This document shows, piece after piece, positions 2,922 through 20,179 of a DNA stretch of 34,989 nucleotides (its first letter is position 1; the number at the start of each line of letters is the position of its first letter). The stretch lies in IMG/VR virus record IMGVR_UViG_3300009151_000206, positions 1 through 34,989 of that record; one strand, 5' to 3'. The translations under genes were made by a program, and so were the position numbers. Origin of the DNA: a virus. The notes under the pieces are model-generated. The model searched no databases. It was given only the letters and a program-made list of their open reading frames with translations, and was not told the DNA's origin.

Positions 2922-3518
2922 ATGGAATCAATCTTAACCACACTTACCGAACAACATTCCGCATCTAATTTGCAGAGATTATCTCGTCAGTCTATGTCTT
3001 GGTTCACCAAGAAGATTACTGAGTTGAAAAATCCAGTCAGTATGGTCAAGGGTATTGCTAGAGAGAAATCTAGATATGTGAGAAGTTTCATTAAAGGCCG
3101 ATTGTATTTCTTTTTGTATGATCCAAAGATGAAAAATGAATTACCATACTATGATAGATTTCCTTTGGTTTTGATATTGGAAAAGTATGATGATGGTTTC
3201 CTTGGATTAAACCTACATTACTTACCAGTTAAGTATAGGATTTTATTCCTTAGGAAATTGATGCAGTTTGCAATCCTGGACGATCAGGATGAAATCAAGC
3301 GTATGAGAGTCACATACGACATATTAAATGCGTCCAAGAGATTCCGAGAGTTCAAGCCGTGTATTAAAAAGTACTTGTTCCCTCACATTAAGTCTAGAAT
3401 TCTGGCGGTTCAACCTGATGAGTGGGAAACAGCCATGTATTTACCGGTTCACCAGTTCAAAGGTGAAAAACCACAGCAGATATGGAAAGAATCCATGGAA
3501 GAAGTTAGGAATTCATAA
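2922..3518 (+). CDS. Conserved T4-like phage protein next to gp4 (possible DNA end protector gp2 analogue)
   Basis: 198 aa, basic N-terminus (residues 20-60), then the strongly patterned block FFLYDPKMKNELPYYDRFPL and GFLGLNLHYLPVKYR. This block is common in aquatic T4-like phages directly after gene 4. In T4 genes 2 and 4 are adjacent, so a head-tail joining or DNA-end role is a reasonable guess, but no similarity to T4 gp2 is visible. The gene starts 12 nt after gp4 and is followed by the tube-like gene after 2 nt, so the three are co-transcribed. Confidence 0.6.
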   Translation: MESILTTLTEQHSASNLQRLSRQSMSWFTKKITELKNPVSMVKGIAREKSRYVRSFIKGRLYFFLYDPKMKNELPYYDRFPLVLILEKYDDGFLGLNLHYLPVKYRILFLRKLMQFAILDDQDEIKRMRVTYDILNASKRFREFKPCIKKYLFPHIKSRILAVQPDEWETAMYLPVHQFKGEKPQQIWKESMEEVRNS

Positions 3519-13221: not shown

Positions 13222-13269
13222 GGTGGATATTCTGTTACGAGGAATCCACCGAACCCTAGTCTGCGTTTA
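13222..13269 (-). repeat. Leader hairpin element, copy 1
   Basis: Inverted repeat GGTGGAT/ATCCACC (13222-13228, 13244-13250) around a 15-nt loop, followed on the plus strand by GAACCCTAGTCTGCGTTTA. Loop and flank are nearly identical to copy 2 while the stem differs with pairing kept. It lies 28 nt upstream of the 13194 start codon. Confidence 0.8.
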
Positions 13270-13491
13270 TATTTCGTTAGAGATAAAACTATTTAACAAT
13301 TTTGCTTTTGCAATAATGTCACTTTCATTTGGAAAACTTGGAATTTCAGGTAAAGGAGTTGATTTATCAACTTCCAATTTCATATGCCATTCTTGCATAA
13401 CCGATTCCTTTTTACTAAAAAAGTCTTGCATAAGCAAGTCTTTAGCCATTTCCAATAATTGAAAACGAATTTCATAAGGTGTTTTACTCAT
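13267..13491 (-). CDS. Small conserved T4-like phage protein, unknown function
   Basis: 74 aa, helical; starts MSKTPYEIRFQLLEMAKDLL, a beginning I recognise from uncharacterised aquatic T4-like phage proteins. SD AAGGAGAAA at proper distance. Its leader carries copy 2 of the conserved hairpin. Its end lies at the edge of copy 1. Confidence 0.7.
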   Translation of the reverse strand: MSKTPYEIRFQLLEMAKDLLMQDFFSKKESVMQEWHMKLEVDKSTPLPEIPSFPNESDIIAKAKLLNSFISNEI

Positions 13492-13531
13492 AGATTTCTC
13501 CTTGTGTGTGAGTGTGTGTTTATTAAAATGA

Positions 13532-13580
13532 TAGGTTATTCTGTTACGAGGAAACCTACCGAAACCCTAAGCAGCGTTTA
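13532..13580 (-). repeat. Leader hairpin element, copy 2
   Basis: Inverted repeat TAGGTT/AACCTA (13532-13537, 13553-13558) around the same 15-nt loop as copy 1 (ATTCTGTTACGAGGA on plus), then GAAACCCTAAGCAGCGTTTA. A further small hairpin AGCAGC/GCTGCT follows at 13570-13587. It lies 41 nt upstream of the 13491 start codon. Confidence 0.8.
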
Positions 13581-13581
13581 G

Positions 13582-13788
13582 GCTGCTAATGCGAACTTTT
13601 CATCGTTTGCGTTTAGTTTAATTTACTTTTTACATCTCTCTGTGATGAGTTGTCCATGCATCTACTTGTTACCCAATCGATCCTGTGTATGGCCCATCAA
13701 TTATCTTCTATTATCTGGAAAAAATAATTGGTGGACCATTCGGGCACTGCCCCCGAGTCTTGAGTGCTTTTTGATTTACTTCATACAA
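13582..13788 (-). other. Non-coding stretch with long hairpin; candidate structured RNA
   Basis: No gene is visible on either strand. Arms 13691-13704 and 13724-13737 pair over 14 positions (12 Watson-Crick, one wobble, one mismatch) around a 19-nt loop. A second hairpin TCGGG/CCCGA lies at 13740-13756. With the leader hairpin below it, this could be a long structured 5' leader or a small RNA. Confidence 0.45.
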
Positions 13789-13881
13789 CTATAACCGATC
13801 ATTGTAATATGCCCATATCCATAATCCACTAACTATAACGATAGCAATTATGGATAAGAATAATACAATATCAGATATCAT
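13789..13881 (-). CDS. Tiny single-pass membrane protein
   Basis: 30 aa, essentially one transmembrane helix (IVLFLSIIAIVIVSGLWIWA) with a short charged end. Its ATG overlaps the stop of the upstream tiny gene (ATGA), indicating coupling. No family recognised. Confidence 0.5.
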   Translation of the reverse strand: MISDIVLFLSIIAIVIVSGLWIWAYYNDRL

Positions 13882-18272: not shown

Positions 18273-18749
18273 TTAAGAAACACGAATATAAAAGCTAGCG
18301 ATTGTAGGGCTACAAGAATAACGTTGATATGTATGTGCCATTGCAGACCATGTCCCAGAAAGACCCAATGAACTGGAAGCAGGAAGATCTGATGCTTTCC
18401 AAGTTCTAGTATTATTATATATTACACTATTCAATGCTCCAATACGAGCATAACAACCGGCGCAATCCATTGCGGCATCACTTGCTCTTTTCAGACAAGC
18501 ACCTGCAATAGTAGATGAGGGTCTTGTATATGTTGAAGCTGTACCAGCAGATGCAAAAGCTATAACATAAGTCCCCACAGCACCATATGTTGTAACAACC
18601 GATGCATTAGAACCAGCAGGACCTGTGGGTCCTGTACCTCCTGTAGATCCAGTTGGACCAGTAGAACCAGGTGGACCAGCTACAGCAGCTGTGGTCATGG
18701 TGGTAGAATCACTAAACGTTAGTGTTGATCCGGAAAATGAAATAGACAT
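18273..18749 (-). CDS. Collagen-like tail fibre protein A
   Basis: 158 aa. Shared N-terminus SISFSGSTLTFSDSTTMTTA, GPPGSTGPTGSTGGTGPTGP collagen-type GXY repeats (about 25-48), then a C-terminal head domain with TYGAVGTYV, AGACLKR and LSGTWSAM before a terminal FYIRVS. Six Cys lie in the variable head. One of three paralogues with a fixed framework and variable loops, presumably host-binding tips. Confidence 0.85.
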   Translation of the reverse strand: MSISFSGSTLTFSDSTTMTTAAVAGPPGSTGPTGSTGGTGPTGPAGSNASVVTTYGAVGTYVIAFASAGTASTYTRPSSTIAGACLKRASDAAMDCAGCYARIGALNSVIYNNTRTWKASDLPASSSLGLSGTWSAMAHTYQRYSCSPTIASFYIRVS

Positions 18750-18755
18750 TTTGTT

Positions 18756-19166
18756 TTAATTAGGTTGTGTTGGCCAATCGATATTACTAGGATCAGATTG
18801 AGTAGTAATATCTCTTAATGCTTGGCGATATGCCGATAAAGCGTTTTGTTTTTGTTCTGTATAAGAATTCCAACGGTCTGGCAACACCAAAATATCCGAT
18901 TGTGTAAGAAGTGTATCTCTACGATCACGAACTCTACGCCACAATTGTTCTGTAGTTGGTGGTGGAGGTGGAACATAGTCACCGATTGAACCATATTTAC
19001 CTGACACAATATCATTATAAATGCTTACGCCATGATCTTCTGGATCAGTATCACTAGCTGTAAATGGATGAGGTTCATCAAATTCAGCAAATTTTACTTT
19101 ACAATTGATGTGTTTTTTGTCTTCTGTGCGATAGACAATATTTGTAATTGATTCTACTGTATACAT
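18756..19166 (-). CDS. Tail fibre assembly-like protein
   Basis: 136 aa. C-terminal motif LWRRVRDRRDTLLTQSDILV then ALSAYRQALRDITTQ and a final WPTQPN is typical of phage tail-fibre assembly/DUF4376-like proteins (R-x-x-R-D-x-L-L; YRQALRD; WP-x-P). A proline run (VPPPPPTTEQ) separates it from an N-terminal beta region. Location between fibre genes supports a chaperone or fibre-tip function. Confidence 0.8.
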   Translation of the reverse strand: MYTVESITNIVYRTEDKKHINCKVKFAEFDEPHPFTASDTDPEDHGVSIYNDIVSGKYGSIGDYVPPPPPTTEQLWRRVRDRRDTLLTQSDILVLPDRWNSYTEQKQNALSAYRQALRDITTQSDPSNIDWPTQPN

Positions 19167-19183
19167 TTTTTACTCCAAATTAA

Positions 19184-19630
19184 TTAAGAAACTCGCACCC
19201 AAAGATTAAGCTTTTTAGTGCTGTCACCAGAAGGATGATAATGACTGGTCATAGCTCTCCAAGTTCCAGATAAACTTAAACTTTCGCTTTGTAAAACATA
19301 TCCCTGAAGAAATTGATAAGATGCGATCCGAGTATTTAATGATCCGCCATAAGTTGTTACGCAAGATGTATCAGTTTGTCGGAAAAGGCAAGCTCCAGCT
19401 GCTGTACAGCCAGGTCTTGTCCAACCGGTTGTGGCTGGAGCTCCGGCAATCACATAACTACCAACAGCACCATACGTAGATGATGGTGTGCCTGTAGGAC
19501 CTGGTGGCCCCGCTACACTACTTGGTGAACCAGCTGGACCAGCAGGTCCAGGAGGTCCCGCTAACGAAGCCGTAGTCATTGTAGTGGAATCACTAAATGT
19601 TAATGTTGAACCAGAAAATGAAATAGACAT
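19184..19630 (-). CDS. Collagen-like tail fibre protein B
   Basis: 148 aa, same framework as its neighbours: conserved N-terminus, two short GXY blocks interrupted by SPSSV, STYGAVGSYVIAG, TAAGACLFR, LSLSGTWRAMTSHY and LNLWVRVS at the end. Its leader ATTAGGGTTTAAA resembles that of fibre C. Confidence 0.85.
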   Translation of the reverse strand: MSISFSGSTLTFSDSTTMTTASLAGPPGPAGPAGSPSSVAGPPGPTGTPSSTYGAVGSYVIAGAPATTGWTRPGCTAAGACLFRQTDTSCVTTYGGSLNTRIASYQFLQGYVLQSESLSLSGTWRAMTSHYHPSGDSTKKLNLWVRVS

Positions 19631-19642
19631 TTTAAACCCTAA

Positions 19643-20179
19643 TTAAACAGTTCTAACAAATAAATTCATTTGTCTATAACAAGTACAAACATATTGCCTT
19701 GATGTAGTCATACTTCTCCATGTTCCTGACAAACTTAAAGATGTAAGATTACCTGCGCCTACAAGTGACCTTAGAGCGTTGCTAGAAGGGCTAGACAAGT
19801 TCAAAGAATTAAAACTTCCCCCCCTATAATTTGCACACGCTAAATATGCACAAGATACCCTACCTAAACAAGCGCCTGCTATTGTGCTACCAGAACTAAA
19901 AACTGTACAGACTGTACCTGAATTCATAAATGCAGCCACATAAGATCCTACAGCACCATAAGTAGATGATGGTGTGCCAGCAGGACCAGTTGGTCCGGTT
20001 GGTCCTGTTGGTCCAGTACCACCTGTGGGACCTGTTGGTCCAGGACTTCCTGTTGGACCCGGTACACTACTTGGTGAACCAGCTGGACCAGTAGGACCAG
20101 GTGGACCAGCCACAGATGCTGTGGTCATTGTAGTGGAATCACTAAATGTTAAAGTAGATCCACTAAAAGATATAGACAT
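19643..20179 (-). CDS. Collagen-like tail fibre protein C
   Basis: 178 aa, the longest of the three because of an extended GXY tract (about residues 25-70, mostly GPT triplets). The head keeps YGAVGSYVAAF, TIAGACLGR, LSLSGTWRSMT and LFVRTV; six Cys in the head. First fibre gene behind the TATAAATA late promoter. Confidence 0.87.
   Translation of the reverse strand: MSISFSGSTLTFSDSTTMTTASVAGPPGPTGPAGSPSSVPGPTGSPGPTGPTGGTGPTGPTGPTGPAGTPSSTYGAVGSYVAAFMNSGTVCTVFSSGSTIAGACLGRVSCAYLACANYRGGSFNSLNLSSPSSNALRSLVGAGNLTSLSLSGTWRSMTTSRQYVCTCYRQMNLFVRTV

Follow-up and report, generated by a model that had tools for sequence, protein, structure and literature searches.

Probable displacement of a tmRNA 3' end behind a small gene of a T4-like phage

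On the minus strand of the 34,989-nt viral DNA analysed here (IMG/VR record IMGVR_UViG_3300009151_000206, in the following termed the window), two hairpins with the same loop flank a short gene, orf74 (Table 1). Judged from its sequence, hairpin 2 is the 3'-terminal hairpin predicted for the coding piece of a permuted two-piece tmRNA (ssrA) of a T4-like phage. Hairpin 1 is likely to be an old end of this tmRNA gene, which would have been displaced by an insert bearing orf74 and kept as a putative 3'-end hairpin of the latter. The homology of the hairpins, the junctions of the insert and a relative with an empty site can be read from the sequence comparisons presented below, whereas the order of the recombination events is what we infer from them.

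Table 1. Features of the ssrA-orf74 locus in the window
Feature	Position	Strand	Evidence or remark
303-aa gene, directly behind the complete tmRNA in L123, L125, L126 and L127	12283..13194	-	weak, sub-cutoff match to DUF4214
hairpin 1, detached copy of the tmRNA 3' hairpin	13222..13250	-	covariance model R1, 52.1 bits, E 5.7e-14
TAAACGCAGACTAGGG, fusion of the orf74 stop codon to the 3' half of a tmRNA stop-codon helix (putative fossil)	13254..13269	-	same in L123 tmRNA 3' end and L129 junction
orf74, 74-aa gene between the hairpins	13267..13491	-	homologues in many phages; no Pfam or PHROG match
hairpin 2, 3'-terminal tmRNA hairpin	13530..13560	-	R1, 61.2 bits, E 8.5e-17; beta_tmRNA alignment
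tmRNA coding piece, from GGGCCAT (pairs with ATGGTCC, G3-U70) to hairpin 2	13530..13695	-	Rfam, sequence, parse
tag reading frame ANDEKFALAA and stop TAA	13578..13610	-	sequence
predicted intervening sequence between the two tmRNA pieces	13696..13728	-	sequence parse
tmRNA acceptor piece: T-arm TCGGG-GGCAGTG-CCCGA, acceptor 3' strand ATGGTCC, ACCA	13729..13756	-	sequence, parsed; inside RF04321 match

Both hairpins carry the identical 15-nt loop TCCTCGTAACAGAAT (13229-13243 and 13538-13552), which is closed by 7 pairs in hairpin 1 (GGTGGAT/ATCCACC) and by 8 pairs, one of them G-U, in hairpin 2 (GGTAGGTT/AACCTATC). A covariance model (R1) was derived from 76 tmRNA 3' hairpins of other phages, with the window excluded; these are the 77 unique attached hairpins minus that of L036, whose stem did not fit. 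R1 recovers both hairpins, and the third-best match in the window reaches only 11.3 bits (E 0.28), so that the two same-loop hairpins reported in a preliminary description of this DNA are real. Folding of the single sequences is unremarkable (z of -1.5 and -1.7), with energies of only about -10 kcal/mol. Across the 76 homologous hairpins, 88.7% of the cells are paired, and changes on both sides of a pair amount to 131 cells vs 47.3 in shuffles, a value reached by 0 of 500 shuffles; slid controls fall far below the true alignment in this covariation test. The earlier assignment of a selected RNA structure is borne out by these numbers. It had been made dependent on further copies in related phages, and such copies are present: a scan of viral contigs for the flank and loop pattern returned at least 120 matching stretches. 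Most of the matches listed form stems of 6-9 pairs, and a tag precedes many of them; the short-stemmed ones appear fortuitous. One pattern scan of bacterial genome contigs gave three matches, two without a fitting stem and one with a G-U-rich stem.

The tmRNA upstream of orf74 is matched by the Rfam family of permuted tmRNAs (RF04321) with 102.2 bits at 13578-13790, vs a gathering threshold of 47, and by alpha_tmRNA with 67.6 bits at 13530-13864, a match that ends at hairpin 2; in the beta_tmRNA alignment, a stem closing a 15-nt loop appears at the same place. Within 13530-13790 we find all of the features looked for in a permuted two-piece tmRNA, namely a tRNA-like domain matched by the family model, an acceptor piece preceding the coding piece, and a tag frame whose last residues before the stop codon are -AA. 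Visual inspection and a script gave an acceptor stem of 7 bp, GGGCCAU/AUGGUCC, which includes G3-U70 and is followed by ACCA. ARAGORN called no tmRNA in the window. The T-loop of many phage tmRNAs, among them those of L003, L007, L113 and the window, is the unusual GGCAGTA or GGCAGTG and not of the TTCGA type. In L054, the tmRNA hairpin is directly followed by a stretch that we take to resemble a glnA glutamine riboswitch, an arrangement also reported from phage Melnitz. A phage-encoded tmRNA as such is of a known kind, two-piece tmRNAs being described for phages in the available text of PMC9004378 and PMC11915505 and in general in that of PMC3968760. The T4-like character of the window is apparent from gp32 and baseplate genes; among the matches listed, the gp32 relatives of named phages belong to cyanophages (55-62% identity). 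For the locus itself, named isolates gave a weak match only, to Synechococcus phage BUCT-ZZ01, whose permuted tmRNA carries the other loop form. Elsewhere in the window (18273-20179, minus strand), three collagen-like proteins with near-identical N-termini (MSISFSGSTLTFSDSTTMTTA) are encoded.

Hairpin 1 lacks a tmRNA body: it is orf74 that lies in front of it, and no tmRNA match at the Rfam gathering threshold ends there, the alpha_tmRNA match at this position (22.1 bits) being below gathering. Relatives of the adjacent 303-aa gene are encoded in seven loci. Four of them (L123, L125, L126 and L127) have a complete tmRNA with a hairpin-1-like 3' end directly 5' of this gene; L122 has a complete tmRNA with another 3' end, L124 has no tmRNA at this place, and L121 matches the window. 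Upstream of the tmRNA in L122 there is a 189-aa gene (153-722) that appears HNH-like by eye and has no Pfam match. The window shares its upstream flank with L123, and its similarity to L123 resumes at TAAACGCAGACTAGGG and extends into the 303-aa gene. Hairpin 1 and the flanks on either side of it correspond to the L123 tmRNA 3' end, apart from a compensated pair in the stem (G-C to A-T) and a single change in the flank ahead of the 303-aa gene. In L129, the L123 tmRNA is unchanged up to the tag codons; from there on, the tag end and the hairpin differ, and orf74 and the displaced end come next, joined as in the window. Since the hairpin-1 stretch forms the end of a complete tmRNA before the 303-aa gene in L123, it would represent a displaced tmRNA 3' end, and the comparison of L123 with L129 identifies the front part of hairpin 1 as one half of the tmRNA stop-codon helix, the partner of which is missing. 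Both the window and L129 thus contain, relative to L123, a restored target gene and a displaced fragment.

We propose that the tmRNA formerly encoded at this locus ended in hairpin 1, and that recombination brought in a segment whose left part would have provided a functional 3' end of the tmRNA, comprising the tag terminus and hairpin 2, with orf74 as cargo. If the junction with the old gene was formed at the tag stop codon, the tmRNA would have been restored and the old end left behind orf74. The detached hairpin would then have been kept as the 3'-end hairpin of the orf74 transcript, where it is probably terminator-like. The tmRNA body of the window differs from that of L123, so more than one exchange would be needed. 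The insert of the window harbours neither an integrase nor an endonuclease gene; orf74, the sole gene assigned between the hairpins, had no match in a phage collection. The same final arrangement would be reached by tandem duplication and deletion, in which two tmRNAs once stood in a row and hairpin 1 is the remnant of the second, its body being replaced by orf74; the junction at TAA would be a plausible deletion endpoint. However, a tandem of two complete tmRNAs was not recognised at any locus: L052 and L059, the candidates for it, consist of one tmRNA and a displaced end. Insertion, on the other hand, fits L123 and L129 directly. We therefore regard duplication and deletion as improbable.

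Moving outwards from the loop, the first six stem pairs are as listed in the preliminary description, three of them differing on both sides between the hairpins. As the hairpins match two different tmRNA alleles, these double differences do not represent three events since a duplication. A date after detachment can be assigned to just one compensated pair, the G-C to A-T change of the window relative to L129 and to L123.

The hairpins had also been taken for leaders of two genes. Their positions do not agree with this, because hairpin 2 ends the tmRNA gene and hairpin 1 comes after the stop codon of orf74; furthermore, homologous hairpins precede very different genes, which argues against control of the gene behind. 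A translational leader whose loop UCCU pairs with the downstream SD was proposed on the basis of UCCU in the loop and AGGA in both SDs. But the second common loop form (ACTTGGAAACAGAA or ACTTAGCAACAGAA), present in 114 of 226 attached hairpins, is devoid of UCCU and thus unable to pair with the SD in that way. Attached hairpins are part of a tmRNA regardless of the gene behind, and the loop would be conserved because it belongs to the tmRNA. We consider such a leader highly improbable. A riboswitch or SD-sequestering leader was rejected likewise, since the window has no riboswitch match at Rfam gathering thresholds. A processing or 3'-end element is possible.

What hairpin 1 may do at its present site is suggested by the orf74 homologues. 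The 121 unique orf74 loci comprise 94 that lack a tmRNA hairpin upstream. In this group, a GC-rich hairpin lies within 60 nt past the stop codon in 76 loci, and a copy of the tmRNA hairpin in none. By the criteria applied, the 27 tmRNA-linked loci split into 10 with an intact copy, 4 with a decayed copy, 8 with a GC-rich hairpin and 5 with neither. A GC-rich hairpin after the stop codon is found in 0 of the 10 loci with an intact copy, while one of the four decayed-copy loci also scored as GC-rich (Fisher tests on the locus counts, 7e-8 and 0.009, relatedness of the loci being ignored). Since the hairpin behind orf74 takes the usual terminator slot, a 3'-end role is likely for such copies, and hairpin 1 perhaps serves as the 3' end of a transcript. 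Another terminator within 70 nt was seen, by the criterion applied, for just 3 of 170 unique attached hairpins. TTTT follows the stem in 36% of the attached tails (n = 87) and in 38% of the detached ones (n = 13), vs 7% of random positions, although the T-rich tails are weak to modest. A scan for intrinsic terminators that allowed loops of 3-8 nt listed neither hairpin of the window, their loop being too long.

Detached copies were also found behind other genes. Out of 50 further contigs searched as a whole, three (L040, L079 and L081) have a second, weaker copy, a proportion that does not equal a population frequency because the 50 had been selected for an attached copy. The copies sit after a PqqA-family peptide in L040, an outer-membrane-like protein in L079 and a short secreted-looking peptide in L081; their stems are intact and their loops altered or shortened. 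The L040 peptide (PF08042, E 1.2e-8) is encoded between the tmRNA hairpin and the decayed detached copy (about 3210-3285) and hints at a methylotroph host. The contig behind L050 (L515, 711-2771) contains a tmRNA with its hairpin, a MotA/ExbB-like gene, two genes without match, an HD domain gene and then a detached hairpin.

One way in which displacement can happen, as far as the sequences tell, is the insertion of an endonuclease gene. In L052 (minus strand) and L059, the tmRNA gene is interrupted between the tag F codon and its displaced remainder by a gene in antisense orientation. Of the encoded proteins, that of L059 scores just above the cutoff for GIY-YIG (E 1.2e-4), and that of L052 has a NUMOD3 match (E 2.1e-6). 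In these loci, a re-coded end completes the tag (ANDEQF-LMVA, ANDNAF-LMAA) and comes with another hairpin, and the original end is located behind the endonuclease gene. An empty site, L073, is identical to the displaced end of L052 from GCATTAGCAGCC onwards over the stretch compared and differs to the left of GCATTAGCAGCC. Antisense genes of the GIY-YIG/NUMOD3 type within tmRNAs with re-coded tags (-LMAA, -LMVA, -LAAA) were also noted in L330, L350, L373 (with a sub-threshold NUMOD3 match only), L391, L347, L438, L349 and L439.

Relatives of one such endonuclease are encoded in 67 loci. By hand count, a tmRNA end, a displaced end or both adjoin the endonuclease gene in 40 of the 67 (tmRNA end in 27, displaced end in 34), considering only stems of at least 6 pairs and leaving out two chance matches (L491 and L506). 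Some of the remaining loci carry a third type of replacement end outside the search pattern (e.g. L459). This third type of tmRNA 3' end, with the loop core TTCCTTATTAACCAA, was seen next to an endonuclease gene in L448, L478, L480, L490 and L459. All 12 loci run through Rfam had a permuted tmRNA above threshold. Complete parsing was possible for 32 of the 38 unique tmRNA bodies whose tag ends are re-coded, and G3-U70 is kept in each of the 32. When the flanks were re-scanned without a stem filter, 35 of the 67 loci provided 34 distinct flanks; the loop is kept in 21 of them, 17 with a stem of at least 6 pairs and 4 with the stem lost. Just behind the four stem-less copies, a GC-rich, terminator-like hairpin is located.

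The loss of the stem with retention of the loop in these four copies is what would be expected if hairpin 1 were a neutral fossil devoid of function, intact through youth or through recombination with hairpin 2, and the half-helix preceding hairpin 1 is plainly a fossil. On the other hand, the detached copies of L130, L131, L079, L081, L040 and L459 have retained the full stem although the loop has decayed or become shorter, which is the opposite of the pattern expected from copying of the tmRNA; in several lineages the loop shrinks and the stem stays. Moreover, the compensated pair of the window copy is absent from all attached class-1 stems tallied, and the 10 intact copies behind orf74 stand in place of the GC-rich hairpin. 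A functionless fossil thus appears unlikely to us, if less so than duplication and deletion. Under the preferred reading, the detached hairpin would be a transcript-end hairpin that is dispensable where a terminator is present.

More tentatively, and with somewhat greater doubt than belief, the ssrA 3' end may be regarded as a site of cargo capture. GIY-YIG elements would enter the tag codons with a re-coded terminus (-LMAA, -LMVA or -LAAA for -ALAA). As this terminus would keep the degron and the 3' hairpin and at the same time destroy the target, the rescue RNA would survive. Displaced hairpins would serve as portable gene ends, giving rise to rows of genes plus hairpins behind the tmRNA (orf74, PqqA, outer-membrane-like genes and the MotA/HD block).

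The arrangement shares features with several known systems. Marine-phage permuted two-piece tmRNAs (Melnitz, Mosig; RF04321), as far as described in the available text of PMC9004378, are alike in gene order, tRNA-like domain, tag, 3' hairpin and T4-like carrier; they have a glutamine riboswitch in the 3' domain, for which Rfam gave no match in the window, and that part of the source does not mention a detached second 3' end as seen here. Islander islands in tRNA and tmRNA genes, according to the accessible part of PMC4383910, likewise split their target, which is restored by incoming DNA, with the displaced fragment at the far end; in contrast, the insert described here is about 0.3 kb long, with one 74-aa gene and no integrase, and lies within a phage genome. 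The group I intron form of tmRNA (PMC11915505, available portion) is also mobile DNA in a tmRNA gene, but restoration in our case would proceed via a duplicated gene end and not via splicing. No intron match at the gathering threshold was obtained in the loci run through Rfam. The GIY-YIG and NUMOD3 matches are reminiscent of the Seg-like and I-TevI-like homing endonucleases of T4-type phages, whereas the genes of the sister phages are antisense in the ssrA tag and come with a replacement RNA gene end; the window insert has none. Gene cassettes of integrons consist of a gene and a trailing hairpin. The same holds for the units described here, sometimes several in a row (L338, L052), although the hairpin would be tmRNA-derived. 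At the level of titles and abstract beginnings, with subscription journals mostly outside coverage, we found no report on endonucleases in ssrA tags, nor, at the same level, on detached tmRNA ends or endonuclease-borne replacement ends.

Two previously unexplained hairpins can thus be read as traces of recombination at a phage gene for ribosome rescue. For annotation, this means that a tmRNA-type hairpin in a phage genome does not necessarily indicate a tmRNA, and that gene-end hairpins can apparently be borrowed from an RNA gene. The findings point to selfish endonucleases that reside inside ssrA without visible breakage, and predict that the re-coded tags would still mark proteins for degradation and would resist cleavage.
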